DNA of 35,069 nt. It comes from Verrucomicrobiaceae bacterium (GTDB taxonomy: Bacteria > Verrucomicrobiota > Verrucomicrobiia > Verrucomicrobiales > Verrucomicrobiaceae). A model generated the notes under the pieces. It saw only the letters and a program-made list of their open reading frames with translations. It did not search any database and had not been told where the DNA came from. Both the position numbers and the translations under genes were made by a program. Below, piece by piece: positions 1-31,600 of this stretch. The stretch lies in assembly GCA_021298725.1 (NCBI GenBank), contig JAJTDU010000017.1:1-35069 (forward strand). The letters are read 5' to 3'. The number at the start of each line of letters is the position of its first letter. The first letter of the stretch is position 1.

Positions 1-60
1 ACCCGCCTGCTTGACACCGCCCCCTCCTTCCCCCGACTTACTGCCCCCTCAAAACCTGCC

Positions 61-1056
61 ATGCCCCGCCGAATCACCTACCGCGACGCCATCCGTGAAG
101 CCCTCGATGAAGAAATCGCCCGCGACCCCATGGTCGTGGTCATGGGGGAGGAAGTCGCACAATACAACGGTGCCTATAAAGTAACCCAGGGCCTCTGGGA
201 CAAATGGGGTGACAAACGCCTCGTGGATACCCCCATCAGCGAGGCTGGCTTCATCGGCATGGGCATCGGTGCGAGCATGCTCGGCGTGCGTCCGGTCATG
301 GAGCTCATGTTTTGGAGCTTCTACACCGTCGCCTGGGACCAGATCGTCAACAACGGTGCCATGGTCCGCTACATGTCCGGCGGCAAGATCAACTGCCCCA
401 TCGTCATCCGCGGCCCTGCCAACGGCGGCACCAGCGTCGGCGCGACCCATTCCCACACGCCGGAAAACATCATGGCGAACTTCCCCGGCATGAAGTGCGT
501 CTGCCCCAGCAACGCCTACGATGCCAAGGGCCTCATGAAGGCCGCCATTCGTGACAATGACCCCGTCATGTTCATGGAGAGCACCAAACTCTACGGCGAA
601 GAATGGGACGTGCCCGCCAACGAGGAAATCCCCGGCGGCGACCTCTTCATCCCCCTCGGCCTCGCCGACGTGAAACGCGTGGGCACCGACATCAGCCTCA
701 TCGCCCACGGCAAAGCGGTGATCACCTGCCTCGAAGCCGCTCGCATTCTCGAAGAAGAGCACGGCATCCACGCCGAGGTCGTCGATCTCCGCACCATCCG
801 CCCGCTCGACGAGGACACCATCCTCGAATCCGTCGCCAAGACGCACCGCGCCATCTACGTCGAAGAAAACAAGCCCTATTGCGGCATCGGAGCCCAGATC
901 GCCTACATGATCCAGGAGCGCATCTTCGACGAACTCGACGCCCCGGTGCAGCGCGTGTGCAGCCTTGACGCCCCCGCCATCTACAGCCCACCGCTCGAAG
1001 CGATCCAGCTCCCGACCGCCGAGGTCGTCGTCGCCAAAGCCTTGAGCATTTGTTAA
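61..1056 (+). CDS. pdhB: Pyruvate dehydrogenase E1 component, beta subunit
   Basis: The 331-residue product is the beta chain of the thiamine-diphosphate-dependent E1 enzyme, which with E1-alpha decarboxylates pyruvate and passes the acetyl group to the lipoyl arm of E2 in the cytoplasm. The length is normal for the family (about 325-330). Near the N-terminus the hallmark GEEVAQYNGAYKVTQGL is visible, followed by the DTPISEAGF segment and the GGTSVGATHSHTPE loop; the C-terminal transketolase domain carries VVDLRTIRPLDEDT. The reading frame is open upstream to the window edge, so the start at 61 is chosen by homology (MPRRITYRDAIREAL is the usual beginning); no strong ribosome site is visible. 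The alpha subunit would be expected just upstream, outside the window. pdhC follows at 1429, but a hicB gene and a hicA remnant sit in between, which is unusual. Confidence 0.96.
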   Translation: MPRRITYRDAIREALDEEIARDPMVVVMGEEVAQYNGAYKVTQGLWDKWGDKRLVDTPISEAGFIGMGIGASMLGVRPVMELMFWSFYTVAWDQIVNNGAMVRYMSGGKINCPIVIRGPANGGTSVGATHSHTPENIMANFPGMKCVCPSNAYDAKGLMKAAIRDNDPVMFMESTKLYGEEWDVPANEEIPGGDLFIPLGLADVKRVGTDISLIAHGKAVITCLEAARILEEEHGIHAEVVDLRTIRPLDEDTILESVAKTHRAIYVEENKPYCGIGAQIAYMIQERIFDELDAPVQRVCSLDAPAIYSPPLEAIQLPTAEVVVAKALSIC

Positions 1057-1068
1057 ATTGGACCCACC

Positions 1069-1287
1069 ATGAAATTCACCCAGGTCTTCAAGAAAGTGCC
1101 AGAAGGCTACGTCGGCTTCGTCGAAGAGCTGCCCGGTGCCAATACCCAGGGCACGACTCTCGATGAAACCCGCGCCAACCTGCGCGAGGCTATGGAGCTC
1201 ATCATGGAGGCCAACCGCATGCTTGCTGAGAAGGAGATCGGCAGCGACGAGGTTTACCGCGAAACCATGCTCCTCGCTGCTGCGTGA
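1069..1287 (+). CDS. hicB: HicB-family antitoxin (type II toxin-antitoxin)
   Basis: This 72-residue protein resembles the small partial-RNase-H-fold domain of HicB antitoxins: the opening MKFTQVFKKVPEGYVGFVEE, the ELPGANTQGTTLDET turn and a helix LREAMELIMEANR are typical. It is the short form, with no C-terminal DNA-binding domain visible. In intact systems HicB binds and silences the HicA mRNA-cleaving toxin. It starts 12 nt after the pdhB stop and lies in the same direction as pdhB and pdhC, so it is probably cotranscribed with them. The toxin gene expected right after it is truncated (see 1274-1414), which would leave this antitoxin without a local partner. The family call is firm; whether the protein still has a function is unknown. 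Confidence 0.85.
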   Translation: MKFTQVFKKVPEGYVGFVEELPGANTQGTTLDETRANLREAMELIMEANRMLAEKEIGSDEVYRETMLLAAA

Positions 1288-1414
1288 ATGCGGCAACCAT
1301 TCAGTTTATGTCAATCGTGCCACCCGCAAAAGCTCCTCGGTGCCGCGTCACCGCGAGATCAACGACTTCCTTGTGAACAAAATCTGCAAAGACCTCGAAA
1401 TCCCCCGCCCCTAA
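1274..1414 (+). pseudogene. hicA: N-terminally truncated HicA toxin remnant
   Basis: In the +1 frame relative to hicB, the peptide LLRECGNHSVYVNRATRK, then SSSVPRHREINDF and NKICKDLEIPRP up to the TAA at 1412-1414, matches the C-terminal two thirds of HicA toxins, including the conserved histidine of the G-x-H motif. The first helix of HicA (about 20 residues) and a start codon are missing: the recognisable part begins inside the last codons of hicB, with no suitable ATG, GTG or TTG in frame just before it. A deletion of roughly 60 bp at the hicB/hicA junction would explain this. A +1 ribosomal shift at the end of hicB could in principle give a HicB-HicA fusion, but I see no specific signal for that. 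Confidence 0.7.
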
Positions 1415-1428
1415 CCTTTCTTCCTGCC

Positions 1429-2718
1429 ATGCCTAAATTCATCGAAATGCCCAAGCTCAGCGACACCATGACCGAGGGAACCCTCGCCAAATGGACTGTC
1501 AAGGAAGGGGACAAAGTCACCGTCGGCAAGGCCATCGCTGACATCGAGACCGACAAGGCCACCATGGAGTACGCCAGCCCGTTTGAAGGCGTTCTGCACA
1601 AATTCATCGCGCTACCCGGCGGCAAAGTGCCGCTCGGCTCTCCGCTGGCGGTCATTCTTGAGGAAGACGAGGCCGCTCCCGCCAATCTCGACGAACTCAT
1701 CGCCAAAGCCCAGTCCGCCGCAGCTCCGGTGCCTGCTGCTGAGAAAAAACCATCTGCGACCGCCGCCAAGGCCGCAAGCGCTGGCCCGCGCCTCCCGCAA
1801 GCTCCGCAACACAAGAGCCGTGCCGCCGCCGCGAACTCCAATATCCGCGTCAAAGCCTCCCCACTTGCCAAAAAGATCGCTGCAGAACGTGGCGTGGACC
1901 TCAGCGCGCTCGTCGGCTCAGGTCCGGGAGGTCGCATCGTCCGTGAGGATGTCGAAAACGCCCCGGTCGGTGGTTCCAGTGCCCGCGTCGCTGCCACACC
2001 GGCCATCCGCCCGACTTTTGGCCCCGAAGACGAGCGCGTTCCCACCAGCAGCATGCGCAACATCATCGCCGAACGCCTGCTCGCCTCGAAGACGCAGATC
2101 CCACATTTCTACCTCCAGATGGAGGTCGATGCCGCGCCGCTCATGGAATTCCGTGCGCATCTCAACGCCACCAATGAAAAAACCGGCGGCGTGAAGTACA
2201 CCGTCAACGATTTCATTCTCAAGGCGGTCGTCCGTGCCGCGCAGGCTCAGCCCGCCATCAATGCCGCGTGGGATGGCGATGCCATCGTGAAATTCAAATC
2301 CGTCGGCCTCAGCGTCGCCATCGCCATTGATGACGGTCTCGTCACCCCGGTCATCAAGCAGGCAGAAAAGAAAACACTGCTCGAAATCAGCCAGAGCGTC
2401 AAAGACCTCGCCGGCAAGGCCAAGACCAAAAAACTGAGCCCAGACGACTTTGCCGGTGGCACCATCACCGTGTCGAACTTGGGTGCCTATGGCATTGACC
2501 AATTCGCTGCCATCATCAATCCGCCGCAGGCTGCGATTGTCGCCATCGGCAGCATCCGCAAGGCTCCCGTCGTGGATGACAAGGGCCAGATCGTCGTCGG
2601 CCAGCGCATGTGGGTCGGTCTCAGCGGCGATCATCGCGTCGTCGATGGCGCTGTCGCCGCCACCTTCCTCGCCGAAATGCGCAAGCTGCTGGAAAACCCG
2701 GCGCTCATGCTGGTGTAG
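1429..2718 (+). CDS. pdhC: Dihydrolipoamide acetyltransferase, E2 of pyruvate dehydrogenase
   Basis: The 429-residue E2 core subunit transfers the acetyl group from lipoyl-lysine to CoA. Domain order is clear: an N-terminal lipoyl domain (residues 1-80) with the lipoylated lysine in ETDKATM at K43; an Ala/Pro-rich flexible linker (about 95-140); a peripheral-subunit-binding domain (about 145-185, KASPLAKKIAAERGVDL and GSGPGGRIVREDV); and the acyltransferase domain to the C-terminus with the active-site motif HRVVDG (catalytic H402). The frame is open back to 1288, but those upstream codons overlap the hicA remnant and give no family similarity, so the ATG at 1429 (MPKFIEMPKLSDTM) is taken as the start. 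There is one lipoyl domain. E3 (lpd) is not in the window. Confidence 0.96.
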   Translation: MPKFIEMPKLSDTMTEGTLAKWTVKEGDKVTVGKAIADIETDKATMEYASPFEGVLHKFIALPGGKVPLGSPLAVILEEDEAAPANLDELIAKAQSAAAPVPAAEKKPSATAAKAASAGPRLPQAPQHKSRAAAANSNIRVKASPLAKKIAAERGVDLSALVGSGPGGRIVREDVENAPVGGSSARVAATPAIRPTFGPEDERVPTSSMRNIIAERLLASKTQIPHFYLQMEVDAAPLMEFRAHLNATNEKTGGVKYTVNDFILKAVVRAAQAQPAINAAWDGDAIVKFKSVGLSVAIAIDDGLVTPVIKQAEKKTLLEISQSVKDLAGKAKTKKLSPDDFAGGTITVSNLGAYGIDQFAAIINPPQAAIVAIGSIRKAPVVDDKGQIVVGQRMWVGLSGDHRVVDGAVAATFLAEMRKLLENPALMLV

Positions 2719-2725
2719 TCCATTC

Positions 2726-2773
2726 CAGCCTCAAGCGGCATCCACGCCTGGCGAGGATGCCCCCACGAGGCTG
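2726..2773. terminator. Nested stem-loop between convergent pdhC and TPR gene
   Basis: Two perfect 7-bp inverted repeats are nested: CAGCCTC (2726-2732) pairs with GAGGCTG (2767-2773), and inside it GGCATCC (2737-2743) pairs with GGATGCC (2755-2761). The hairpin sits 8 nt after the pdhC stop and faces the 3' end of the minus-strand TPR gene, a position suited to a shared terminator. There is no clear T-tract (GAGAAAAATC follows on the plus strand), so it may be a stabilising 3' structure or a weak terminator. Confidence 0.5.
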
Positions 2774-2863
2774 AGAAAAATCAGCACGCAACCTCAGTTC
2801 AAAAACGCCAGCGGTCTCACACTGAGCTGCTGTTGGCAGGTTTGCTCTGCCCGATGCCGCCAC

Positions 2864-5017
2864 TCAGCGTTGCGAGATCTTGCCGGCATTGAGCAGCTTT
2901 TCGAGATTCTCATCTGCTTTCACGCCTTTTTTGATGGCCTCGTCGTATTCGACGCGGGCCTTCTGCCACTGCGGTGGGTCCCAGGTGACGTAGAGCACCG
3001 CTAGATTGAAGTGCGCTTCACCATAGGCCGGATCAATCGCCAGTGCGGTCTTGAACTCGCGCTCGGCACGCTCCATCAGGCTCATTTTGGTGGCGATGAT
3101 GCCGAGGTAGTGCCTGCCGCTGGCGTTGTTGGGACGTTTGGAGAGGCTTTTCTCAAAGTAGGTCATCGCATCCTTCCAGCGCTCCTGCTTGAAGTAGGTG
3201 ACACCGAGGGAGAAGGCGGCGGGTTCGTTCGCCGGGTCGTAGGCCAGCGCTTTTTGCAGGGCCACCTCGGCGTCTGCATGCTTGTCCTCACGCTGGCGTG
3301 TCATGCCTAGGCCAATGAGGGCGGACACGTTTTTCGGTTCAGCGCGCAATGCGTCCTGGTAGAGTTTTGCCGAAGTTTCAAACTCCTTGTTCATGTAAGC
3401 CTCGTTGGCCTGCATGATGAGGGTTTCAGCGGTGCCAGGAGCGGGTGGCGCGGCTTTCTTGTCGCTGTCCGGTGAAGCGTTGGCGATGAGCGTGGCCTGC
3501 ACACCCTTCGGGCCGAGCAACTCACGCACCACGGGGTCAGAGAAGAGCTTTTCCTCGTCGGGAGTCAGCGTCATGCGCGCGTTTTTGAGCTCTTCGACCT
3601 GCTGGATGAGATCATTTGAAGCACTCTCCATTTTTTGCAGTTCGGCAATCATGAGATCCTTCGCGGCCTGCTGGCGGTGCTGGGCGCGTAGCTGACGCAT
3701 GATGATGGCACGGAGCATTTCATTCTCCTGCGTAAGTTCGGGCGTGGCGGCCATCTTGGCATCCATGGCAGCAGGCATTTCTTTCAATTGCTTCGTCAAC
3801 TCGGCCACCTGGGTCTGGTAGGCAGCGCTTTCCTGGCGCAGCGTGGCAAGCTGGCTCTGCAAGCCCGTCAGCTGGCCGCGCAGCGCGACGATCTCCTGAT
3901 CTTTGCGGCTCACATCGGCCTTCAGGGTGACCACCTGCTGCTGCACCTCGCCAAGTTCCTTCTTCAAACGCTCGTTTTCCGCGACGAGGCGCTGCATCTC
4001 GGCACTGCCGGTCTTTTTCTTCAACTCGTCCACCTCTGCCTGCAAACCGAGACTGCGGGCGCTGGCGGCATCACGGTCCTTCACCGCCACATCGCGCTCC
4101 TTGACGGCGGAATCGCGTTGTTTCACGGCCTCATCACGCTCTTTGAGCCTTTGATCACGCTCCTGCTCGATGGCAGCGATGCGCGCGGAAGACGCCGCCA
4201 GTTTTTCGGAGGCATCTTTCGCTGCGGCCTCGGCGGCGATGAGACGCTGGCCGTTTTTCCGCACCTCCAGCTCCACCGCCATTTTTTCCTCCATCAGCTT
4301 GTCGAGCTGGCCCTGGGCCGCGCGGCCTTCCTCCACGTCCTTGGCCATTTGCATGATGCCCTGCTCCATGGCGGCGGCTTTTTTACCCAGCGCGTCGTTT
4401 TGAGCGCGGGCGGTGGTGATCTCGCCGGAGGCCCACTGGTACCACTGCTGCCATTTGCCGAGGTCGAGCTGATACTGGTTGTTCTGCGTCTCCAGCTCAA
4501 GGATGCGCTTTTTATGCATCGCCTCCCACTGGCTGAGCATATCGTTCAAGCTGGGCAGAGAACCCAGAGTGGAAGGCACGGACGGCGCTGTTTGGGGCAG
4601 AATGCCCGGAGCTGGCACACCGGCGGCCGCAGGGAGATAACTCGGCGCAGCAGGTGTCTGCAGCTGCGGTGTCAGTGCCATCGCTGGTTCGGCGGTGGCC
4701 TGAGGCTGGGAAAGTCGCATCTGGATGCGGCCGAGCGCGTCCTGGATCTTCTGCTGGCGGCTGGCCCGCATCTCCGGCTGCCAAGTTGGGTAATTGCGGG
4801 CGATGCTGTCCATGATCTCTCCCGCCTGCTTGAACTTCGACTGTGCCTGGGGGAAATCCCCGGCGGCCTCCAGCTTCACGGCCTCATTGTTGAGCACAAA
4901 GCCGCGGAAGTACTGGTCGGCCACCTCGCTGCTGGCGTCGATGGACTGGGCATTCATCACCGGGGCAGCCAGGGCAAGCGCTGCCAGGAGTGTGAAAACA
5001 AAAAGAAGACGGTTCAT
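2864..5017 (-). CDS. Secreted coiled-coil and TPR-repeat protein
   Basis: The 717-residue protein begins with a signal peptide (MNRLLFVFTLLAALALAAPV, probable cleavage after NAQ), so it acts outside the cytoplasmic membrane. A short helical segment and an Ala/Pro-rich stretch (about 125-180) precede a long coiled coil (about 190-480) containing degenerate heptad-like repeats of the type ERDxAVKxRD. From about residue 530 to the end there are at least four TPR units (for example ALIGLGMTRQREDKHADAE, AFSLGVTYFKQERWKDAM, HYLGIIATKMSLMERAE, HFNLAVLYVTWDPPQWQKA). TPRs bind partner proteins. The frame extends to 5119, but the signal peptide fixes the start at 5017. The methyltransferase gene lies 68 nt upstream on the same strand. 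No catalytic domain was seen; the specific role is unknown. Confidence 0.85.
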   Translation of the reverse strand: MNRLLFVFTLLAALALAAPVMNAQSIDASSEVADQYFRGFVLNNEAVKLEAAGDFPQAQSKFKQAGEIMDSIARNYPTWQPEMRASRQQKIQDALGRIQMRLSQPQATAEPAMALTPQLQTPAAPSYLPAAAGVPAPGILPQTAPSVPSTLGSLPSLNDMLSQWEAMHKKRILELETQNNQYQLDLGKWQQWYQWASGEITTARAQNDALGKKAAAMEQGIMQMAKDVEEGRAAQGQLDKLMEEKMAVELEVRKNGQRLIAAEAAAKDASEKLAASSARIAAIEQERDQRLKERDEAVKQRDSAVKERDVAVKDRDAASARSLGLQAEVDELKKKTGSAEMQRLVAENERLKKELGEVQQQVVTLKADVSRKDQEIVALRGQLTGLQSQLATLRQESAAYQTQVAELTKQLKEMPAAMDAKMAATPELTQENEMLRAIIMRQLRAQHRQQAAKDLMIAELQKMESASNDLIQQVEELKNARMTLTPDEEKLFSDPVVRELLGPKGVQATLIANASPDSDKKAAPPAPGTAETLIMQANEAYMNKEFETSAKLYQDALRAEPKNVSALIGLGMTRQREDKHADAEVALQKALAYDPANEPAAFSLGVTYFKQERWKDAMTYFEKSLSKRPNNASGRHYLGIIATKMSLMERAEREFKTALAIDPAYGEAHFNLAVLYVTWDPPQWQKARVEYDEAIKKGVKADENLEKLLNAGKISQR

Positions 5018-8288: not shown

Positions 8289-8713
8289 ACACCCTCACCA
8301 TCTTCTACGATGCTCATTGCGGCCTCTGCTCGCGCTTCCGGCGCTGGATGCTCGACCAGGCTGCTTACGTTCATCTCGATTTCATGCCCTACGACTCCGA
8401 ACAGGCGCGGAAACGCTGCCCGGATCTTCCGAACCTTCGCGCCGACCAGGAAATCGTCGTCATGGGCGATGACGGCTCGCTTTGGCAGGGGGCGGGAGCC
8501 TGGGTGACATGCCTTTGGGCCTTGCGCGAGTATCGCGAGTGGTCACTGCGGCTCGCCAGCCCCGGTTTGCAGCAGATCGCTCGTCGTGTGGTGCATTGGA
8601 TCTCCAGCAACCGCATCAGCCTCTCGCATCTGCTGCGCTTGCGCAGTGATGATGCGCTGCGTGCGGAAGTGTCCCATGTTTCATGCGACACCGGCACCTG
8701 TGCGGTGGATTGA
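8285..8713 (+). CDS. DCC-family thiol-disulfide oxidoreductase-like protein (DUF393)
   Basis: The 142-residue protein opens with TIFYDAHCGLCSRFRRWML, the DUF393 signature in which D9, C12 and C15 form the DxxCxxC motif that gives the DCC family its name. A later segment ADQEIVVMGDDGSLWQGAGA fits the family's beta-sheet core with the substrate loop. Members are predicted thioredoxin-fold redox proteins, but few have a known substrate. The C-terminus adds two more cysteines (HVSCDTGTCAVD), which could be a metal-binding or second redox pair. The ATG at 8285 overlaps the upstream stop (ATGA), so it is the last of three coupled genes. The PVC heme protein gene begins 61 nt downstream and could share the transcript. 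Confidence 0.85.
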   Translation: MNTLTIFYDAHCGLCSRFRRWMLDQAAYVHLDFMPYDSEQARKRCPDLPNLRADQEIVVMGDDGSLWQGAGAWVTCLWALREYREWSLRLASPGLQQIARRVVHWISSNRISLSHLLRLRSDDALRAEVSHVSCDTGTCAVD

Positions 8714-8774
8714 TCCGAGTCAGGCGCTCAGCAAATGCTTGAAGGAGCACTGCCGCCTGCGCTGTAATGCCTGC

Positions 8775-11615
8775 ATGCATTTCCTCCGCTGCCTTGCCGT
8801 CGTTTCGGCGCTCACCTTCACGCTTCATGCCGCCGAGGAAAAACTCCGCCTCGTGCGCGAAACCGATGCGCTGACGCCGGAACAAGAACAAGCCGGTTTT
8901 CATGTGCCGCCGGGCTTCGAGGTCCAGCTCTTCGCCAGTGAGCCGCAGATCAACAAGCCGATCAACATGGCCTTCGATGCCCGTGGCCGCCTGTGGGTCT
9001 CCTCCACCGTCGAGTATCCCTACGCTGCCGATAAAAGCCGCTGGCGTGATCTTCAAGGCACGCACGTCAAAGGCAGCCGCGATGCCATCAAAATCCTCGA
9101 AGACACTGATAGCGATGGCAAAGCCGACAAAGTCACCGACTTCGCCAACGAACTCAACATCCCCACCGGCGTCCTCCCTTGGCACAAACCCGAGCACAAG
9201 GCCGGCTGCATCGCCTGGAGCATCCCGAACATCTGGTACTTCGCTGACACCAATGGCGATGACATTGCCGACCATCGCGAGGTCCTCTTCGGCCCGCTTG
9301 GCTATGAAAAAGACACCCACGGCATGTGCAGCAGCTTCCGCCTCGGTCTCGACGGCTGGGTGTATGCGACGCATGGCTTTAACAACACGAGCCAATTCAA
9401 AGCCAGAGACGGCAGCACGCTCGAACTCCACAGCGGCAACGTCTTCCGCTTCAAACCCGACGGCTCACGCGTCGAACCATGGACCCACGGCCAAGTGAAC
9501 CCATTTGGCCTCTGTTGGGATCGCTACGGCAATCTCTACAGCGCCGACTGCCACAGCTCGCCCATTTATCAGCTCATTCGTGGCGCTCACTATCCCAGCT
9601 TTGGCAAGCCGCACGACGGCCTCGGCTTCGCGCCCGTCATGTGCCAGCACACGCATGGCAGCACCGGCATCTGCGGCATCGTTTACATCGACGGCGGCGT
9701 GTGGGGCCCGGAGTGGGATGATCACACCTTCGTCGGCAACTGCGTCACTTCTCGTGTGAACCAAGACAAAGTCACCTTCACCGGCTCCACGCCCAAAGCC
9801 AACGAACAGCCCGACTTCCTCACCAGCGACGATCCGTGGTTTCGCCCCGTCGATCTCCAACTCGGCCCCGACAGCGCCCTCTACATCGCCGACTTCTACA
9901 ACAAGATCATCGGGCACTACGAAGTGCCGCTGGATCATCCGGGGCGTGACAAAGAACGCGGGCGCATCTGGCGGATCGTCAAAACCTCCGGCACCTCCAA
10001 GCTGACGCTTTCTCCATCACTCGATCTCACCGACTGGCGTGCCGCACTGCAAAATCCTGCGCCCTTCGTGCAACGCGCCATGCTCGTGAAGATGCTCGAT
10101 GCGCCGCAGATCGAAGCCCTCCCGCTGCTCATCCGCAACGCCCAGCAAACACCTGCCGATGACGCAAGCCTCACGCTCGCATACCGCATCGCCATTCGCG
10201 ATCATCTCAAGCTCCCAGGTGCTTTCGCCAAGCTCAGAGACACCCCGCCAAGTCTGATTGACGAAATCGCCATCGCAGTGCCCACGCCAGATGCCGCTGA
10301 ATTCCTCCTCAGTCATTTGCAGCGTGGTGCACCAATCACCGCTGCGGCCCTCACCCAAATCGCACGCTACGGTGATCCGTCGCTTACACCCCAAGCCATC
10401 GCGCTTGCCAGAAAGTCATCACTCCAAAGTTTCACCACTCCACTCCCGCTCCTCACCGCCCTTTCGGACGGCCTCGCCGAGCGCGGCACGCCTCCACCAC
10501 CCGAACTCCTCGCCTGGGCGCAAGAACTTGCCACGCAGCTTCTCGATTCCACCGCGAAACAACCCACACCCGCCTGGACCACGCTGGGCGACACGAAATG
10601 GTCCCTCCAGCCGCGCAAACTCACCGATGACACCGAGGCACCTGTCCTGCAAAGCATCGCCAAAGGCGGTGGCGATGAAGAAAGCCGCACTGGCACGCTG
10701 AAGTCGATCCCCTTCACCGCACCGGCCAAACTTGCTCTCTGGATCAACGGCCATCGCGGTCCACCGAAAGCTGAGCCTCACGCCAAGAACGTCATTCACG
10801 TCCACGAAGCCAAAACAGGCCAGATCATCTCCAGCGCCTTCCCACCGCGCTCCGACATCGCCAAACAAGTCGAGTTTGATCTCAAGGATCACCTTGGGAA
10901 ACCCATCACACTCGAAGTCATCGACGGCGACGACGGCAAAGCCTACGCCTGGCTCGGCATCACCCGCATTGAGCCTGCCGTCATCAGCGTGAATGATTTC
11001 CAAAGCGCCGACACCACCCGCGAGAGCCTCAAAACGCTCGCTGTCATCCTTCAGCACAGCGCCCCGGCCGCGTTGCGCGAAAAACTGGCCGCCTACCTGC
11101 CACCGCGCCCCGCACCACCTCCGCTGCCTGTTTCACGCGAGCAGCGCAAACAACTCGACACCCTCATCGCCACCCGCGTCTCCGCCTTGGCCAAAGCGAA
11201 GCCCGATCTCGAAACCGGAGCCAATGTCTTCAAGATGAACTGCGCCGCCTGTCATCAAATCAAAGGCGAGGGCGGTCTCATCGGCCCGCAGCTCGATGGC
11301 ATCGGTGCGCGGGGCGCTGCACGACTTTGCGAAGACATCCTCGACCCGAATCGCAACGTCGATGCTCATTTTCACCTCCACATGCTCACTTTGAAGGATG
11401 GCAGCACCTTTGCTGGCTTTCTGAAGGCCGAACTCGGCCAGATTCAACTCCTGGCTGACGCCACCGGCAAAGAGCACCGCATCGCCAAGAAAGACATCGC
11501 CAAGACAGAAGTCACGCCCATTTCCCTCATGCCGCCGACGTTTGGTCAGACACTCGATGAAGCGACCTTCATCGACCTGCTGGGGTATTTGCTGAGTGAG
11601 AAAGCGGCGAAGTGA
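8775..11615 (+). CDS. PVC-type membrane-bound dehydrogenase/heme-binding protein
   Basis: The 946-residue secreted protein has a signal peptide (MHFLRCLAVVSALTFTLHA), then a six-bladed-propeller-like region (about 40-420) of the Planctomycete-Verrucomicrobium dehydrogenase-like type, with FHVPPGFEVQLFASEPQI, MAFDARGRLWVSSTVEYP and DLQLGPDSALYIADFYNKII. A helical repeat-like middle section follows. The C-terminal c-type cytochrome domain carries CAACH (C823, C826, H827), then GGLIGPQLDGIGARG and the ILDPNRNVD and LKDGSTFAGF segments of the heme-binding domain found in this phylum. It is probably periplasmic and passes electrons from an unknown substrate, likely a sugar or glycan derivative, to the respiratory chain. 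The open frame extends further upstream, but the signal peptide fixes the start at 8775. Confidence 0.9.
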   Translation: MHFLRCLAVVSALTFTLHAAEEKLRLVRETDALTPEQEQAGFHVPPGFEVQLFASEPQINKPINMAFDARGRLWVSSTVEYPYAADKSRWRDLQGTHVKGSRDAIKILEDTDSDGKADKVTDFANELNIPTGVLPWHKPEHKAGCIAWSIPNIWYFADTNGDDIADHREVLFGPLGYEKDTHGMCSSFRLGLDGWVYATHGFNNTSQFKARDGSTLELHSGNVFRFKPDGSRVEPWTHGQVNPFGLCWDRYGNLYSADCHSSPIYQLIRGAHYPSFGKPHDGLGFAPVMCQHTHGSTGICGIVYIDGGVWGPEWDDHTFVGNCVTSRVNQDKVTFTGSTPKANEQPDFLTSDDPWFRPVDLQLGPDSALYIADFYNKIIGHYEVPLDHPGRDKERGRIWRIVKTSGTSKLTLSPSLDLTDWRAALQNPAPFVQRAMLVKMLDAPQIEALPLLIRNAQQTPADDASLTLAYRIAIRDHLKLPGAFAKLRDTPPSLIDEIAIAVPTPDAAEFLLSHLQRGAPITAAALTQIARYGDPSLTPQAIALARKSSLQSFTTPLPLLTALSDGLAERGTPPPPELLAWAQELATQLLDSTAKQPTPAWTTLGDTKWSLQPRKLTDDTEAPVLQSIAKGGGDEESRTGTLKSIPFTAPAKLALWINGHRGPPKAEPHAKNVIHVHEAKTGQIISSAFPPRSDIAKQVEFDLKDHLGKPITLEVIDGDDGKAYAWLGITRIEPAVISVNDFQSADTTRESLKTLAVILQHSAPAALREKLAAYLPPRPAPPPLPVSREQRKQLDTLIATRVSALAKAKPDLETGANVFKMNCAACHQIKGEGGLIGPQLDGIGARGAARLCEDILDPNRNVDAHFHLHMLTLKDGSTFAGFLKAELGQIQLLADATGKEHRIAKKDIAKTEVTPISLMPPTFGQTLDEATFIDLLGYLLSEKAAK

Positions 11616-20696: not shown

Positions 20697-21512
20697 CTAT
20701 TCCTCCGAAGCAGACACCTTGATGCGGTAGCCGTTCTCGTTCTTCTCCAGCTTCATCAGATTGCGCGCCGCCGCAGCCTCGAGCAATGAACTGAAGGTGC
20801 TGAAGCCGTAAAAACGCTCGTCAAACTGCGGCTGACGGCGGCGGATGGCCTGTTTGACCGGCCCGGCCCACACCGTGTCGCTGCCACTGCGTCCGAGCAT
20901 CGCCTCCACCGTCTCCACCACGAGTTGAATCGCCTTCTCGGGATCGCCGCCGGGTTTCCGCTCCTGCGTGGCCGGTTTGACCGTGGATGGTGCCGGTTTG
21001 GCGCGTGCGAGGCGCGTCTTTGTCTTCTCCTCCTCACGCACGAGGTCGTCATAGAAGATGAACTCGTCACAGTTGTCGATGAACAGGCCGCTGGTGGACT
21101 GCTTCACGCCGACGCCGATCACGGTCTTGTTGTTCTCGCGCAGCTTGCTCACCAATGGCGAAAAATCCGAGTCCCCGCTGACGATGGCAAAGGTATCGAC
21201 ATGCGGCTTCGTGTAGCAGAGGTCCAGCGCGTCCACCACCATGCGGATGTCCGCCGAATTCTTGCCCGACTGCCGCACGTGCGGGATTTCGATCAGCTCG
21301 AACGAGGCCTCATGCACCGCCGCTTTGAAGCTCTTGTAGCGGTCCCAGTCGCAGTAGGCTTTCTTCACCACGATGCTGCCTTTGAGCAGCAGGCGGTCGA
21401 GCACCTTGTTCATGTCGAACTTGTCATACTTCGCGTCCCGCACCCCGATGGCCAGGTTTTCAAAGTCGCAGAAAACAGCAATCGTGTGCGTGCGGTCGGT
21501 GGGGGCAGCCAT
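20697..21512 (-). CDS. NYN-domain (LabA/DUF88-like) putative RNase with OST-HTH domain
   Basis: The 271-residue protein joins an N-terminal NYN/PIN-like nuclease domain (about 10-160) to a C-terminal OST-HTH/LOTUS-like winged domain (about 195-265). The acidic metal-binding residues expected for NYN domains are visible: D16 in FCDFENL, D88 in NSADIRM, and D114/D116 in SGDSDF. The linker (about 165-195) is Lys/Pro-rich. NYN domains cut or process RNA; OST-HTH domains are thought to bind RNA (G-rich or structured). The pair is widespread but its targets in bacteria are mostly unknown. It is convergent with rpsF and divergent from the peptidase gene at 21603. Confidence 0.88.
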   Translation of the reverse strand: MAAPTDRTHTIAVFCDFENLAIGVRDAKYDKFDMNKVLDRLLLKGSIVVKKAYCDWDRYKSFKAAVHEASFELIEIPHVRQSGKNSADIRMVVDALDLCYTKPHVDTFAIVSGDSDFSPLVSKLRENNKTVIGVGVKQSTSGLFIDNCDEFIFYDDLVREEEKTKTRLARAKPAPSTVKPATQERKPGGDPEKAIQLVVETVEAMLGRSGSDTVWAGPVKQAIRRRQPQFDERFYGFSTFSSLLEAAAARNLMKLEKNENGYRIKVSASEE

Positions 21513-23088: not shown

Positions 23089-26000
23089 TCACTCCATCAG
23101 CTCCGCGAGGCGTGAGCCCTCCACTCGCACGACCCAGTTTTCGATGTTTTGGATCTGCTCAGTGTCTTCGTCGTAGCTGCGCTCGACGCGGCATTGGACG
23201 ACGGTGTCGGCGTGCTGGAACATGGTGGGCAGGCGGTCCTCGGGGAAGGCCATGATGAGCTGGAGGCCGAAGTTTCGCGCGAGGGCGAGGCAGTCGTCGA
23301 TGCGGTCGCCGCTGAGCTTGCTGAAGGCCTCGTCCATGACGACGAGGCCGAGATTTTGTGGGTCGTCGCGACGGCCGAGGTCATACACACGGCGGAAGGC
23401 GGCGAGCGTGGCAACGAAGAAGGGCGCTTGGTTTTCACCGCCGCTTTGCTTCTTGGCGCTCTTGTTGAGACTGATCGCCGCGGCATCACCGCGGCCGGCG
23501 GGCTTGGCCTCGATGTCCCAGTGGTGGTAGTAGCGGTAGTCGAGCATGCGCTGGTGGCGCTTGTCCTCGGGATTGTCGGCGGCGTCGATGGCGGCCATGA
23601 GCTCAGCCTTGGCACGCTCGATGTCCTCGCGGCCGGCAGCGTTGAAGAGCTCCATCTCGCTGCCGCTGGGCAGGCCTTTCTCGACGAGCGTCCAGATGGC
23701 GCTGTGGGCCTTGTCGGCACGGCTGGTGAGCTGGTAACGCCAGCCGCCGATCTCGTGATCCATGGCGCGGTTCAGCTCGCGCTTGGTACGGTCGGCCTCG
23801 CTGAGCTTTTCACGCAGCACGTCGAGCACCTGATGCTGCAAACGATCCTCCCATTCCTTCCGCGCTTCATCGGCGGCAGTTTTGAAACGCTCCAGCTCAT
23901 GCGTTTCGAGGTCTTCGCGGCGCTGGTCAAAGGCGGCGTTGTCCTCCGCGTCGGCATCAAGGGTCGCGCAGGCGGCGTGCCTCTTGGGCTCGCGTGTCGA
24001 GCTGAATGGCGAGCGCGGCGGCCATTTCGATGGATTTGCGCCAGCTCGTGGATTTTTGGCGTTCAGCGGTGATGCGGGCAGTGATCTCGACGTCGGAAAA
24101 GCCGTGCACAAGCATGCGCGAAGCCTGGCGACCGATGCGGGTCTGCTCTTCTTGGAAAACATCCTCATGGATGGCTTCTTCGAGTCGCGACTGCTCCAGC
24201 GTGAAAGCGGTGATGGCGGATTTGAGGCCCCCGATGCGCTCGTGGATGCCTTTGAGCGTGGCTTTTTGCACGCGGAGGTTTTCCATGGCCTTCACATGGT
24301 CCGGGGTGGCGAGCAGATCCCAGGTGGCTTGCAGCTCGCGAAATTCCTCGCGCAGTTTGGGTAGGCGCTGGACTTCATCGGCCCCTTCGGGCGCGGTGAA
24401 GCGGTCGAGATGGCCTTCAGCACCGCGGTTCAAAAACGCGCGGAGGTCATCGCAATCGCTGCGCACCTCCTCGATGACGGCGTCGGTCTCGCGAAGCTCG
24501 TTCTCACGCAGGTCGCGGAGGCGGCGTAGGCCTTCCTCGCCGAGCGTAAGTTCTTTTTCAGGCGTGAGCTTCACACGACGCGGCGGATCTTTGAGCCAGC
24601 CATCGAGCGAAATCGCCCGCTCGTGCTTGTCGAGCTGCGCGGCCTTGTTCACGGCGACGATGCCGCCGAGCAGGTGATCGAGCACTTGGCTAGCCACGTC
24701 GTGCTTGGTCTCCACCATCTCACGCAGCGAGCCTTTGAGGACCTTCGTGGTGGTTTGCGCGGCTTCGTCGGGATGAATGAGCGGCTCGTGCGGATTCTGC
24801 GTCTGCTGCGCCTGATCCCACGCGGCGCGGAAGTCCTCGGGAAGCACGGCGCGGCGATGAATGGCGAGCACGGTCTCGATGAGCGGCCACCATTTTTCCG
24901 CGCTGGCCTTCACCTCGACCACGCGACCGAGCGCGACCGCTTTTTGTCCGCGAGACTGCAAGGCATTCAGCAGCGGCGAGGGCGTGGCGTGGCCTTCGCG
25001 GAGTTGCGCGAGATCTTTGTGCAGCGCAGCTTTACGCTGCTCATGCTCGTTGAGACGGGCGAGGACGGGCTGGAGCTGTTCGTTCACCTCGTCCTTCAGC
25101 CGCATGTAGGCACGCGCGGTGTCGCGTGCAGCGGCGAGGGCGCGTGACTCGTCCTTGTGCTGCATCCCGGAGATGGCGGCGGAGGCTTCGTCGAGATTTT
25201 GCAGGCCGAGGCGTGAGGCATGCAGCGTCCAGTCCTGCCAGCGGCGGCGGTGGGCGCGAATGCGCTCATGCAGGCTGCTGGAGGCCGCATTGAGCCGCTC
25301 GATCTCGCTTTCGAGCTCGCGACGGCGGCGGTCGATTTCTTCGAGCTTGAAGGCTTTGTCACCCAGTGCGGCGCGGGCGGATTCCTCGGCGTGTTCGAGG
25401 CGTTCGCGCTCGCGGATGGCCTGCTCGTGCGCTTGCAGGTTCTCAGCGTGCTCGGCGCGTTTGTCTTCGAGTTCGGTGCGGCGGCGGTTGAGGCCTTCGA
25501 GCGCTTCCTCGTGCTTCAAAGCGTCGCTGAGGTGCGAGTAGAGTGCGGACTCGCGTTTCGAGGTGAGCCAGTCCTGATGATGCGCGGAGATGCGCTTCAG
25601 GCGCTCGAGCTGGTCGTACATTTTCTCCAGCCGCTCCTGCGCACGGCGATGCGCATCGACGCTGGCCTTCACCGCCTTCACATCCGGCATGCCGGGCTCA
25701 AGCAGGAACTCGCGCACGAATTTTTCGAAGTTGCTCTCCGGCTCGAAGGCCATGGCACGGGGCAGCGTCTTCGCCATCTGCTCGGCGTCGAAGCCGAGGT
25801 GGCTGCGCAGTGCCATCTCATCGCGGTAAGTCTGCTGGCGGTCCCACACATCGCCGTCGAGCTCTCGCTTCACGCGGGTGCGGAATTCATCCTCGGGCAG
25901 GAATTGCATCGCCTGCGGTCCGGCGTCGCTGTTGAGGAAATCCTGCCACGCGAGACGGCGTCCGGTGCGGAACCAGATCGTCGAAGGCTTCGCCGTGGGG

Positions 26001-26377
26001 CTTTCATACTCGATGCGTGCGCCCCAAGTCTCGCGACGCGGCTCCTCGCCGTCTTTCGCGGGCCAGGTGAACTCCAGCGCGGCCAGCGTGACGCTGCTGG
26101 GCCGCAGGTAGCGCTCCGCACCGTCGCGACCGGTCGTGTTCGTGTCGCACAGGCAGTAGCCGCGCAGGGAGCGCCCGCTGCCCGCGCCGGCGGCGGCCTT
26201 GTTGAACTTGCTCTGCTGCTCGCCGAGCATGACGAACTGGATCAGATCAAGCAGTGCGCTCTTGCCGCTGCCATTGGCGCCGGTGATGAGCGAGAGACCG
26301 GCCACATCGATGAACTGGCGGTAGCCATACCAGTTCACCGCGAGGATGCGGCTCAAGGTAATGCGCGGAGCGCTCAT
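23089..26377 (-). pseudogene. jetC: Wadjet/Mks-type SMC ATPase JetC (MksB-like), frameshifted
   Basis: One frame runs from the ATG at 26377 to a TGA at 23957-23959 (806 residues), and the protein continues in another frame to 23089. Removing one base from the CCC run of the coding strand (plus strand 23961-23963) restores 1096 continuous codons, reading RRLRDLDADAEDN across the junction. Walker A is GANGSGKS (33-40); long coiled coils flank a hinge-like region (about 480-620); beyond the shift are the ABC signature SGGEN (978-982) and Walker B LVVMDEAF (D1015, E1016). Without the second part the ATPase cannot form a complete head, so the gene as written should be inactive. It overlaps jetB by 4 nt (ATGA). 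SMC ATPases of this class load on DNA and extrude loops. Confidence 0.85.
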
Positions 26378-27027
26378 GCGGCCCCCTCCTCACCTTCCGC
26401 GCTGTCTTTGACCGGCTGATGCAGCTCCACCCGCTGCTGCCACGCGGCGATGTCATCAAACGGGATCACACGGGCCAACGAGGGCAAAATCTCGATCTGC
26501 ATCTCGCCCGCCTGTGTCATGCCCTCGGGCTTCAGCGTGCGGATGAGGCGATGACGGCGGATGCGGGCCAGGCAGGCCTCGATCTGCGATTTTTCCGGCG
26601 TGCTGATCTTGTCGAAGTACACCTTCAGCGCGGCCCAGAGCTGATCCACGGTCACGATGACGGCCTCCTGGCTGCCGGTGCTGATTTCATCATCGTAAAG
26701 CCGCCACAGCGCCAGCAGCACGAGCGTCTCATCCTTGTCAAAACGCCCCAGCAGCAGGCAGGACTCCGTGCGCGGCCTCGCCTGCAGCAGCGAATGCTCC
26801 TCATCGACGATCAACTCCAGCGCCAGCGGCGCGAGGTAGTCCTCCACATGCGTGCGATAATGATCACGGGCCAGCAGATACAGCTCCCGCCCGCCGCCCT
26901 CATCGCCGAGCAGCACGCCACGCCCCAGCAACTCCGCCAGCACCTCCCGCAGCGCCGTGCGGTCCGCATCTGGCACCTCACTCCAAAAGGAGCGCGGCCA
27001 GAGCGGATCGGAGGTGGTGGAGGTCAT
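26374..27027 (-). CDS. jetB: Wadjet/Mks accessory subunit JetB (DUF4194, MksE-like)
   Basis: The 217-residue protein resembles the DUF4194 family, the KITE-like winged-helix subunit of condensin-like Wadjet and Mks complexes: LREVLAELLGRGVLLGDE, LARDHYRTHVEDYLAPLALE, CLLLGRFDKDETLVLLALW and the HRLIRTL wing region. It binds the kleisin JetA and contacts the SMC heads. The start at 27027 (MTSTTSDPLWPRSF) lies 34 nt after the jetA stop. The stop overlaps the jetC ATG. The long upstream frame to 27564 is a shadow of jetA. Confidence 0.85.
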   Translation of the reverse strand: MTSTTSDPLWPRSFWSEVPDADRTALREVLAELLGRGVLLGDEGGGRELYLLARDHYRTHVEDYLAPLALELIVDEEHSLLQARPRTESCLLLGRFDKDETLVLLALWRLYDDEISTGSQEAVIVTVDQLWAALKVYFDKISTPEKSQIEACLARIRRHRLIRTLKPEGMTQAGEMQIEILPSLARVIPFDDIAAWQQRVELHQPVKDSAEGEEGAA

Positions 27028-27061
27028 GGAGGCGGCGATGATGGCGTGGTGTGAAGCTTGC

Positions 27062-28540
27062 TCAAGCCTCTCTTGTGATCGCAAACCGCTCCATGCGGTG
27101 CCCGGCGATTTCGTCGTGCTCCAAAATGTGCGGTTCGAGGCCGTTGCGGCGGCGCAGGCCGTCCACGCTCCAGCGGACGCGTTTGCCGGCGAGGGCGGGC
27201 GCGTGCTCGTAGGCCACGGCGGCGAGGAGGTCGAGCAGGTCGTCGGTGGTTTCGAGCGTGATGTCCTCGGTGCTCGTGGTGCGGCCTTTCGCGGGCAGCA
27301 GCTTCGCCACGAGTCGTCCGGCACGTTGCGGTGTGAGAGCGAGGCGCTGGCGTTCCTTCCATGCAGCGAGCACCTCGTCCTCGCTTTGCTTTGAGGCACC
27401 GGTTTCGCTGAAACGCAGATCGACGGGCGATTTCGTGCGGCGCGGTTTGTAGAGCGACTCGGTGCCGTAAAAGAAGCGCGTCTCCACACAGCGCGGCGCG
27501 AAGTCCGCAGGTTGGCCAGAAAACTCCGAGAAGCGGCCACCGGTGTGCGCGGCATTGATCGCATCGCAGTAGGCTTTGATGATTTCTGGCCTGCGACCGC
27601 GCAATTCGGTCTGGTAGCGGTAACGTTGCTGGCTGAGGCGGTTGAAAGCGGCCATGCGCAGGTCGATGGCCTCCGCGCGGCGTTTCAAGCCGCCGAGATC
27701 ACGCTCCAGGCGTGTGAGTGCCGCCACCGCGTGGTCGTAGGCGTCACCGTCCTCGTAGCCGTAGTGCTCACGCAGGCCGGTGGCGAGGCGTTCACGCATG
27801 AGCGGATCGTCGTGGCACTCGGAGACAGCGCTGCGGGCATTTTCAATGCGGTTGAGCAACCCGCCGCGACGCAGCGCATCGTAGCAGACCATGTGCTGCC
27901 CTTGGCCGAACTCTTCATAGAGCAGATTCAGCGTGTCCGCGGCCGTGGCGGTCTGCCTTTGGCGCTGCTCAAAGCTGGTGACGATTTTTTCCACCGCATG
28001 CAGTTGCTCGATCGCACGCTCCAGACGCTGCGTGAGGTCGGTGATGGTCGAGCGGAGCTGGTCGGGGGCCTGAATCTGCGGATCGAGCACGCCACGCTCC
28101 TCCAGCGTCTGGCAAAGGCCGCGCAGCGTGTCTGCAAACGTTTTGAGCTCCGCCACGCGATCCTCCGCGAGGTCCCGCAGCATGCGCATGAGTGGCCGCA
28201 GCCCCGGCGTGATGACCGCCCAGCGCTCATGCAGCCCGAGCGTCTGATCCTCCAGCCAGCCCGCGGCGATGAGGCGATTGAAAAACTGCCCCGCACGCTG
28301 CCGCGCATCCCGCAGCGCCGCACCCTCATCCTCCGCCAGCAGCGACAACGGATGCCGCGCGATGACTTCCTTGATGACCTCAATCGTCTCCCGCTGCGAG
28401 AGCCTTCCCGCTTCACCCGCCTCATCAATCAACCGATCCGCGCTGTCCACATACACGGGTGCCGAAGGCCGCGCCAACGGCCGGAAAAAATCCGCTGAGA
28501 CGCTGCGGCTGAGTCGGGTGCTGAGGGTTTCGGAAGGCAT
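27062..28540 (-). CDS. jetA: Wadjet JetA-family kleisin-like subunit (MksF-like)
   Basis: The 492-residue protein begins STRLSRSVSADFFRPLARPS and continues with an N-terminal winged-helix-like region and a helical middle, as in the JetA proteins of type II-like Wadjet systems (DUF5716-like) rather than the DUF3375 form. The kleisin bridges the two SMC heads. The order jetA-jetB-jetC on one strand, with jetA and jetB 34 nt apart and jetB and jetC overlapping, is the standard operon minus jetD. The ATG at 28540 is chosen; the open frame continues upstream to 28855 without family similarity. The 159-nt gap to the divergent heme-protein gene would carry both promoters; it holds a small dyad CCGCA/TGCGG (28546-28560). 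Confidence 0.75.
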   Translation of the reverse strand: MPSETLSTRLSRSVSADFFRPLARPSAPVYVDSADRLIDEAGEAGRLSQRETIEVIKEVIARHPLSLLAEDEGAALRDARQRAGQFFNRLIAAGWLEDQTLGLHERWAVITPGLRPLMRMLRDLAEDRVAELKTFADTLRGLCQTLEERGVLDPQIQAPDQLRSTITDLTQRLERAIEQLHAVEKIVTSFEQRQRQTATAADTLNLLYEEFGQGQHMVCYDALRRGGLLNRIENARSAVSECHDDPLMRERLATGLREHYGYEDGDAYDHAVAALTRLERDLGGLKRRAEAIDLRMAAFNRLSQQRYRYQTELRGRRPEIIKAYCDAINAAHTGGRFSEFSGQPADFAPRCVETRFFYGTESLYKPRRTKSPVDLRFSETGASKQSEDEVLAAWKERQRLALTPQRAGRLVAKLLPAKGRTTSTEDITLETTDDLLDLLAAVAYEHAPALAGKRVRWSVDGLRRRNGLEPHILEHDEIAGHRMERFAITREA

Positions 28541-28699
28541 CAGAGCCGCACATGATGCGGAGGGGGCTCCCGGCGGCAAGTTTTCCGAGGTCGAACGTCC
28601 ATCCCCGCCTCGTGGCATGGACGATTCCGCCCTGGGCATGACCAGCGCAAGGATTGTGCTCTCGCGACCGTTTTTTTGCGTCCCCAGCCCACCTTTGCC

Positions 28700-31600
28700 A
28701 TGAAGAATCGTCTCCTCACTGCCGCGCTCGTTTTGTCTGCTGTGTCTGCCTCGGCGCAGGCACCGAAGAAAGATGAGGGCATCGATCCGAACAAGCCGGT
28801 GTCGTTCTACAAGCACATCCGGCCGATCTTCCAGGCGCAGTGCAATGGCTGCCATCAGCCGGCGAAGAAAAAGGGCGATTACATCATGACGGAGTTCGCG
28901 GCCTTACTGAAGGGCGGCGAGGAAGCGGTGGCCGTGGTGCCGGGGAAGGCGGCGGAGTCGAATCTGCTGAAGCTGATCAAACTCGACGAAAAGGGCAAAG
29001 CGGAGATGCCGCAAAAGGCCGATGCGCTGCATGCGACGCAGATCGCGCTGATCGAGCGCTGGATCAATGAAGGCGCGAAGGATGACACGCCCGCTTCCGC
29101 CAAGGCGCAATACGACATGACGCATCCGCCGGTGTATGTGACGGCTCCAGCCGTTACCTCCCTCGAATACTCGCCAGATGGCACGCAGATCGCAGTGGCG
29201 GGTTATCATGAGGTCTTGATTCACAAAGCGGATGGCAGCGGCATCGTCGCTCGACTGGTGGGACTCGCAGAGCGCATTCAGAAGCTCGCCTGGTCGCCGG
29301 ATGGCAAAAAGATCGCGGTCACCGGCGGCAGCCCGGCACGCATGGGCGAGATCCAAATCTGGGACGTGGCAGCGAAGAAGCTCGAACTCTCCAAATCGCT
29401 CACGTTTGACACCATCTACGGCGCCAGCTGGTCGCCCGATGGCAAGCAGCTCGCGTTTGGCTGCGGGGACAATGCCGTGCGCGCCATCGACACGACCACA
29501 GGCAAAGAAACACTCTTCATGGGCGGTCACAGCGACTGGGTGCTCGACACCGTGTGGGGCGTGGATGGGAAGCACGTCGTCTCCTGCGGCCGTGACATGA
29601 GCGTGAAGCTCACCGAGGTCGCCACGATGCGCTTCGTCGATAACGTCACGTCCATCACACCCGGCGCACTCAAAGGCGGTGTGCAGGTGCTGGCGCGGCA
29701 TCCGCAGCGCAACGAGGTGCTCATCGGCGGCACTGACGGCGTGCCAGCCATCTACCGCATGGAGCGCCTCACAAAACGCGTCATCGGCGACAACGCGAAC
29801 CTCATTCGCAAATTCCCCGCGATGCAGGGCCGCATCTTTGGCGTGGACTTCGCACCGGATGGCAAGCGCATCGTCGCGGGCGCCTCGTTTGAAGGCACCG
29901 GCGCGGTGAACATTTATAGCAGCGAATACGACAGCACCATGCCGGATGCGGTGAAGAAGCTCGTCGAAACCGTGAACGGCAAAGGCAAGGAACTCGACGA
30001 CTGGATCGTCAAAGACGTGAAGCAGCTCAGCAGCACGCCGCTGCCGAGCGGGGTCTTCAGCGTGACCTTCTCGCCGGATGGCAAAACGATCGCCGCAGCC
30101 GGTCAGGATGGTCAGATCCGCCTCATCGACGCCGCCACGGGCAAGATCGCCAAAGAATTCGTCAGCGTGCCGCTGGTGAAAGAAAAAGTGCTCGCCGCCA
30201 GTGATGTGATCGCGGACGACACCGTGCGTGTGGACGTGAAAAAGGACGACAAAGTCGAGACGCTGCACACCGGCCCCACCGTGGCCTCCATCGAGGTCGA
30301 GCCCGCGAACATCAAGATCGCCAAGCCCAGCGAATATGCGCAGATTTTGATCACCGCGAAGATGAGCGACGGCACGCGTGCGGACATCACCCGCATGGCC
30401 AAAATCACCGCTGCGTCCGCCAACATCGTGAAGATCGACGAGCGCGGCATGGTGCGCCCGGACAAAGACGGCGCGACCGCCGTGAACATCAGCTTCATGG
30501 GCCGCACCGCCAGCGTGCCCGCGAGTGTCAGCGGCCTGAATCTGGCGCTAAAGCCAGATTACGTCCGCGACATCATGCCCATCACGTCGAAGCTCGGTTG
30601 CAATCAAGGCACCTGCCACGGCGCGAAGGACGGCAAGGCTGGCTTCAAGCTCTCGCTGCGCGGTTACGATCCGATTTACGATGTGCTCGCCTACGCTGAT
30701 GAACTCGCCAGCCGCCGCGCGAACGTGGCCTCGCCGGAGCATTCGCTCATGCTGCTCAAAGCCAGCGGCTCGGTGCCGCATGAAGGCGGCCAGCTCACCG
30801 TGCCGGGCGAGCTTTACTATGAATCCCTCAAAGCGTGGATCAGCCAGGGCGCGAAGGTCGATCTGAAGACACCACGCGTTACCAGCATCGAGCTCTCACC
30901 GAAAAATCCCGTCATCGAGCGCATCGGCGGGCGTCAGCAGCTTCGCGTCATCGCCCGATATGCCGATGGTTATGTGAGAGACGTGACCGCCGAGGCCTTT
31001 CTCGACAGCGGCAACGGCGATGTGATTGAAGCCGACAAAAAAGGCCTCATGACCAGCCTTCGCCGCGGTGAGGCACCAATCCTCGCCCGCTTTGAAGGCG
31101 CTTACGCCGCCACCACCATCACCGTCATGGGTGACCGCACCGGCTTTGCGTGGAAGCAGCCCGAAACGTGGAACAAGATCGACGAACTCGTCGCCTCCAA
31201 ATGGCAGCGCATGAAGATCGAACCGAGCGGCGTGTGCAGCGACGAGGACTTCCTCCGCCGCATCCACCTCGACCTCACCGGCCTGCCGCCGAAGCCCGAG
31301 GAAGTCGCCGCCTTCATCGCCGACCAACGCGACACCCGCACGAAGCGCGGCGAGGTCGTGGACAAACTCATCGGCAATCCGGATTTCGTCGAGCATTGGG
31401 CCAACAAATGGGCCGACATGCTCCAGGTGAACTCGAAAACACTCGGCAGCGAAGGCGCTATCAGCCTGCGGGCTTGGATCAAGCAGCAAGTCACCGACAA
31501 CACGCCGTATGACCGCTTTGCCTACCGCGTCATCACCGCGACTGGCTCCAACAAAGACAACCCCGCCGCCTCGTATTACAAAACCGTGCGCACGCCGGAG

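Follow-up and report, generated by a model that had tools for sequence, protein, structure and literature searches.

Which events left an intact antitoxin gene and a toxin gene without its beginning between two genes for pyruvate dehydrogenase, and what has become of the pair? The DNA concerned, called the window in the following, is a stretch of 35,069 nt from Verrucomicrobiaceae bacterium (GCA_021298725.1, contig JAJTDU010000017.1, positions 1-35,069, forward strand), whose genome is a draft, 82% complete and divided into 289 contigs. We consider it very probable that a hicBA pair stands behind pdhB, that a repeat-mediated deletion of 55 nt hit hicA in the window, and that HicB stayed whole, with no working toxin and hence no partner at this locus.

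Organization of the locus

The features of the locus, with the evidence for each, are the following.

61..1056, plus strand: pdhB, pyruvate dehydrogenase E1 beta, 331 aa, stop TAA (Pfam Transket_pyr 1.4e-41, Transketolase_C 2e-36)
1069..1287, plus strand: hicB, intact 72-aa antitoxin without a DNA-binding domain (UPF0150/HicB-like 5.2e-6; homologues at the same site; AlphaFold model)
1274..1414, plus strand: hicA remnant, two junction codons followed by residues 18-61 of a 61-aa HicA (HicA_toxin profile; alignment to the full-length hicA of relatives)
1280..1288, plus strand: putative deletion joint, the single remaining copy of the direct repeat CTGCGTGAA (alignment; repeat pair in the related locus L043)
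1284..1376, plus strand: out-of-frame 30-codon ORF opened by the old 4-nt overlap start, GTGA (ORF list; hicA start position of relatives)
1429..2718, plus strand: pdhC, dihydrolipoyl acetyltransferase E2, 429 aa (Pfam 2-oxoacid_dh 1.8e-84, E3_binding, Biotin_lipoyl)

The gap between the pdhB stop and the hicB start measures 12 nt in the window. A reading made from the sequence alone (the sequence-only reading) had described hicB and a HicA remnant in the interval from pdhB to pdhC. Pfam hits, synteny, and folds confirmed this; the HicA-like frame closes with a TAA at 1412-1414. Its term "pyruvate dehydrogenase operon" has to be understood as the pdhB-pdhC pair, without pdhA. The side upstream of pdhB in the window is the contig end, and in two relatives (G001 and G023, loci L118 and L131) the gene upstream of pdhB is not pdhA but one in divergent orientation whose product reads as a sigma-70-family factor.

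Further features were noticed elsewhere in the window. A 1009-aa frame with a DUF7133 and a cytochrome c domain lies at 8586-11615. Wadjet-like genes occupy 23089-28855 on the minus strand, with a JetA-like gene at 27062-28855 and a JetB-like gene at 26374-27564. The JetC-like gene, also on the minus strand, is split into two overlapping frames (23957-26377 and 23089-24168) and looks frame-shifted near 23960-24020, a break that may reflect either genuine decay or errors in the sequence. Two short frames tested beyond it gave no match to a defence family. Near the Wadjet-like genes, a protein with an NYN domain and an OST-HTH/LOTUS domain is encoded at 20697-21512 on the minus strand.

Identity of HicB and HicA

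The hicB search covered 56 genomes (own included) and was supplemented by a contig scan, which gave 38 distinct homologous loci; hicBA was placed by tblastn and alignment. Rows with clear ends were picked from these loci for a HicB alignment (the window and 24 relatives) and a HicA alignment (the window remnant and 20 relatives). On the profile level both matches fall below the Pfam cut-offs: hicB reaches 26.7 bits against PF21748 UPF0150 (E 5.2e-6), slightly below the cut-off of 27.3 bits, and the 46-codon remnant reaches 24.2 bits against PF07927 HicA_toxin (E 3.6e-5, profile positions 17-58 of 58), below the cut-off of 27 bits. NCBIfam assigned no family to either of the two. The identity of the genes does not depend on these matches alone, because same-site homologues and predicted folds point the same way. 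Chance similarity as the source of the HicA and HicB matches was rejected in view of the profile E-values, synteny, and fold.

The window hicB is 86-93% identical to the same-site hicB of eight genomes (locus L048 representing G058), and hicB is open over 72 codons in all nine genomes that carry hicBA. Its AlphaFold model (pLDDT 94) consists of three strands and one long helix with no extra domain, and does not show the strand that ends the canonical HicB fold. The first 12 fold hits are HicB or TTHA0281 chains (probability 0.97-1.00, E 0.03-0.15), and the best PDB matches by sequence profile are the uncharacterised TTHA1756 (0.0015), TTHA0281 (0.042), and Burkholderia HicB (0.077).

For HicA we modelled the protein of locus L043 from the relative G015, with a mean pLDDT of 92 and a helix at residues 3-12, strands at 15-20, 24-29, and 34-39, and a second helix at 46-56. 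The first five PDB hits of this model in Foldseek are HicA chains (probability 0.99-1.00, E-values 0.02-0.17), namely HicA of E. coli, of the HicA3-HicB3 complex, and of Burkholderia. The best PDB match by sequence profile is again E. coli HicA (E 0.039). Four of the seven intact hicA genes were scanned with Pfam, and all four scored above the cut-off, as did a shortened copy in G001.

The site behind pdhB in the genus

We found pdhB in 43 of 48 genomes of the genus (own included) and compared the surroundings of all 43; one of them is G059, in which pdhB runs off the contig, so that its downstream side is not visible. In nine of these genomes, the window included, hicBA stands directly behind pdhB, with hicB starting 9-12 nt after the pdhB stop, and in eight of the nine pdhC follows next. 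Among the seven relatives with an open hicA, six have the pair between pdhB and pdhC and one (G026) has it before a sulfatase-like gene. A compact, antitoxin-first hicBA, mostly with pdhC next, occupies this position in several species of the genus.

In 17 genomes the site is empty and pdhC comes next without hicBA, at a spacing of 42-102 nt in 16 of them and 662 nt in G009. By eye, the short spacers resemble one another. The remaining 17 genomes show no pdhC within the stretch compared, some of these stretches ending at a contig end. A search for pdhC in 11 genomes (ten of the remaining 17 and G026) found it elsewhere in each, in G011 on the same contig about 3 kb away. In all nine filled genomes pdhB ends with TAA; where pdhC comes next without hicBA, it ends with TGA in 16 of 17.

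Three observations concern single genomes. In G026 (L047, 3001-3460), hicBA behind pdhB is followed by a gene reading as a sulfatase instead of pdhC, and G068, which is without hicBA, has sequence similar to that of G026 directly behind the pdhB stop. A more distant hicBA (63% hicB identity) lies 48 nt behind a DEAD-box RNA helicase-like gene in G008 (L021), whose own pdhB-pdhC site is empty.

A probable 55-nt deletion in hicA

The relatives allowed us to define what the window lacks. In all eight, hicA starts with TTG (six) or GTG (two), and this start overlaps the stop of hicB by 4 nt (TTGA or GTGA), an arrangement that suggests translational coupling; hicA has 61 open codons in seven of the eight. 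The alignment and the L043 model both show that helix 1 and the beginning of strand 1 belong to the portion missing from the window. The histidine H24, which we take to be the catalytic one, is invariant in 21 of 21 aligned HicA rows, the window remnant among them. Alignment to relatives and the HicA model therefore bear out the earlier description of a HicA that lost its first helix and kept its conserved histidine. The deletion postulated at the junction is likewise supported by the comparison, but its size of "about 60 bp" had to be corrected to exactly 55 nt relative to the relatives. The check proposed by the sequence-only reading had a positive outcome: in the alignment, eight of eight other filled genomes hold the 55-nt stretch in the hicBA behind their pdhB, and none has an identical short hicA frame. 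The short frame was accordingly rejected as the ancestral form, since all eight relatives carry the missing part.

A candidate mechanism comes from the direct-repeat search, which covered two relatives, L043 and L044. In L043 a perfect 9-nt direct repeat, CTGCGTGAA, is found at 3212-3220 and 3267-3275, that is 55 nt apart; the same repeat search did not list it in L044. In the window it is present once, at 1280-1288. The joint thus looks like what a deletion between short direct repeats leaves behind, if the window's ancestor had the repeat pair as seen in L043. Slippage between the copies at the hicB end and at hicA codons 18-20 would remove the 55 nt, a stretch whose absence is itself directly visible in the comparison, and would leave the HicB sequence complete.

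Because a loss of 55 nt shifts the reading frame, the GTG of the overlap (at 1284) now opens a 30-codon frame unrelated to HicA. The statement that hicA has no start thus needs qualification: no usable in-frame start is left, but the GTG persists, overlapping the hicB stop in the wrong frame. The remnant frame is open upstream to 1073, overlapping nearly all of hicB, and contains start codons at 1136, 1163, and 1223, all inside hicB, and at 1340 and 1373, well inside the remnant. With helix 1 gone and the frame cut off from the overlap start, a working toxin would no longer be expected. HicB would then be an antitoxin lacking its partner at the locus, and both genes should drift.

The window is not the only filled site with a damaged toxin gene. 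In G001, also a draft genome, the hicA between pdhB and pdhC (L042, 3216-3401) has a stop of its own, TAA, as codon 51 of 61. We regard this stop as a separate lesion; judged from the model, it would halve the second helix (46-56). Toxin lesions with the antitoxin still open are therefore found in two of nine filled sites, as the 55-nt deletion in the window and as the nonsense codon in G001.

Transcription and translation

Pattern scans of window positions 1-2900 revealed neither a sigma-70-type promoter nor, on the plus strand before the end of pdhC, a terminator-like site. Since it follows so closely behind the pdhB stop, hicBA is probably transcribed together with pdhB and can hardly have a promoter of its own. 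The hexamer TTGACA was seen before pdhB in 12 of 12 genomes inspected and also at 11-16 of the window, where the promoter scan gave no full site.

The sequence-only reading had proposed that the remnant may be expressed by frameshifting. This would need a +1 shift at GCG TGA, and nothing was found in its support; we know of no slippery motif of this sequence. Translation of the remnant, be it as a HicB-HicA fusion after such a shift at the hicB end or from a start inside hicB, strikes us as very improbable. The open frame up to 1073 and the start codons at 1136, 1163, and 1223 would permit it, and fused HicBA proteins exist as classes according to the relevant passages of PMC10865869, but starts inside hicB would add unrelated residues, the GCG TGA junction is not known as a slippery site, and a ribosome ending hicB meets the out-of-frame GTG start. 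In either case, helix 1 would still be absent.

Age of the lesion and alternative explanations

By third-position identity, the closest hicBA is that of G015 (L043), with 81% for hicB and 86% for hicA. Selection was measured by pairwise counts of nonsynonymous and synonymous differences. The remnant differs from G015 by one nonsynonymous and six synonymous changes; without constraint, at most one nonsynonymous change in seven has a probability of 0.0009. For the four changes taken as the window's own the same probability is 0.04, and one of these (remnant codon 6) also occurs in G026. The sole amino-acid change of the remnant relative to G015 falls on G21, which is conserved in 19 of 21 aligned rows. 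The remnant frame was therefore constrained for most of the time since the split from G015, which means that the deletion either happened recently or is unfixed or spurious. Loss of hicA thus appears to be a late event, unless it is an assembly or strain variant. For hicB, pN/pS is 0.07-0.11 between the window and eight relatives and 0.05-0.13 between G015 and the other seven. Constraint on the window hicB is about that of the relatives that keep hicA, yet it carries no information on a continued need for HicB, because the deletion is too recent.

Two alternatives have to be weighed against this background. The deletion was seen in one draft genome, and the JetC-like gene of the same window seems to be frame-shifted, so an assembly or strain variant has to be reckoned with: the gap could be a metagenome assembly error or belong to a minority strain of a species with an intact hicA. 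The draft state of the genome (289 contigs, about 82% complete), the constraint still apparent in the remnant (one nonsynonymous against six synonymous differences to G015), and the apparent JetC-like frameshift all speak for it. But the repeat has only 9 nt and usual assembly word lengths are longer than that, a glycine that is almost invariant is changed in the remnant, and the different hicA lesion of G001, a draft as well, indicates that loss does occur at this locus. On balance we consider such a variant unlikely.

Slightly less likely still is that HicB, once the toxin was lost, was retained for a separate function, for example to neutralise HicA from another locus or from incoming elements. 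This idea draws on an intact and constrained hicB (pN/pS of 0.07-0.11 against the eight relatives) and on the five other HicA matches above the Pfam cut-off in the genome; orphan antitoxins have also been proposed as anti-addiction modules, as stated in part of the work under PMC7192599. Against it stands that most of the constraint predates the recent deletion. Moreover, cross-neutralisation is not to be expected when the closest other HicB-like frame in the genome shares 49% identity with the window HicB over 48 residues, and the amino-acid changes of the window hicB at codons 29 (shared with G026), 45, and 55 give no sign of stronger constraint. The role for HicB suggested by the sequence-only reading found no support. 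We favour the late, repeat-mediated loss of hicA that left hicB behind.

History of the insertion

We counted how often the filled and empty labels change along three trees. There are eight changes on the pdhB tree, six on the pdhC tree, and seven on the rpoB+alaS tree, and shuffled labels gave means of 8.4, 6.9, and 7.1, respectively. The pdhB tree holds 42 of the 43 genomes, the partial pdhB of G059 being left out. The rpoB+alaS tree is without G026, for which neither marker was found, and without a second rpoB piece of G066; it includes G007, G015, and G031 with under half of the columns. As the label changes resemble the shuffled ones on all three trees, a simple vertical history of the insertion was rejected. 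On these trees, gain and loss of hicBA cannot be told apart.

Sliding identity along pdhB and pdhC, inspected by eye for a few pairs, revealed no clear breakpoint. Compared with alaS, hicBA has the higher third-position identity in 18 of 28 pairs of filled genomes, in eight of them by more than 10 points; G023, which has a diverged alaS, takes part in five of these eight. The third-position identity of hicBA is close to that of rpoB where both are comparable. The divergence of hicBA is thus compatible with transfer as well as with no transfer and neither shows nor excludes it. The pattern of pdhB stop codons and spacers fits an exchange of the filled and the empty junction between species by flanking recombination. 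Possible, though rather doubtful in our view, is that the junction is a movable allele, spread among the species of the genus by homologous recombination in the flanking pdh genes so that hicBA takes the place of the empty spacer or the reverse, held by addiction as long as hicA functions, and released by toxin-first decay such as that in the window and in G001.

Relation to known systems

According to the sections on Class 2 hicBA in Gerdes (2024; PMC10865869), such modules have hicB first, close or overlapping genes, a HicB of 60-90 aa without a DNA-binding domain, and a HicA of 60-85 aa with the fold alpha-beta-beta-beta-alpha. By order, sizes, overlap, and lack of a DNA-binding domain the locus described here fits this class, its toxicity and neutralisation being putative. 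The antitoxin gene comes first, an order kept in the window, and overlaps hicA by 4 nt in eight of eight relatives. The window HicB has 72 aa, a predicted partial RNase H fold, and no DNA-binding domain. HicA has 61 aa in seven of eight relatives, with the fold modelled for one (L043), and the conserved histidine is present throughout, window remnant included. The window hicA departs from the class in that it is not a complete HicA, helix 1 and the start of strand 1 being absent. Peculiar to this locus is that the pair stands between pdhB and pdhC, 9-12 nt after the pdhB stop. The fold is shared with E. coli HicAB (PDB 6hpb; probability 1.00, TM 0.72), including a histidine at the matching profile position; the E. 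coli system differs in its hicA-first order, given in part of PMC7167474, and in a HicB with a DNA-binding domain, given in part of PMC10865869.

The sequence-only reading is supported as to a hicBA pair between pdhB and pdhC and its later hicA deletion, but not as to a new role for HicB or frameshift expression. It overstates how unusual the case is, as passages of PMC7167474 already describe TA pairs between housekeeping genes, with the operons undisturbed in other strains, and their decay by deletion or nonsense mutation. Examples given there are the chromosomal ccdO157 of E. coli between folA and apaH and TA pairs in relA-mazG and dinB-yafP. Like ccdO157 in that account, the present pair has a fixed site between two housekeeping genes, is absent from some relatives, and decays by deletion or nonsense mutation; unlike it, it belongs to another TA family and phylum, and its presence varies between species of a genus. 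The same site is filled in nine of 43 genomes and has pdhC next without hicBA in 17, as would be seen with a decaying TA pair. Orphan antitoxins, for their part, are described as common in Klebsiella in part of PMC7192599. Among the matches listed, our literature search found no paper on hicBA in a pyruvate dehydrogenase operon or on this Verrucomicrobia locus; it found none on TA pairs in a "housekeeping operon", nor any under exact phrases on toxin decay.

The locus is thus a new, well-resolved case of a known kind, a TA pair between housekeeping genes with toxin-first decay. It provides a clean example of how a chromosomal TA pair dies, the toxin going first by repeat-mediated deletion and the antitoxin being left. 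Across the sister species the site occurs in a filled form, an empty form, and a form with a second lesion, which together make a small natural series for the gain, holding, and decay of hicBA, a subject on which passages of PMC7167474 call the movement and integration of TA pairs unelucidated. Of greater interest is the patchy distribution of the pair at a single, fixed site. The locus also bears on the question of transcription that is raised for Class 2 hicBA in part of PMC10865869, as the pairs here stand 9-12 nt behind pdhB and have hardly any room for a promoter. If the movable-allele reading is true, a class 2 hicBA, whose HicB has no DNA-binding domain for self-regulation, would rely on the expression of two genes of central metabolism.
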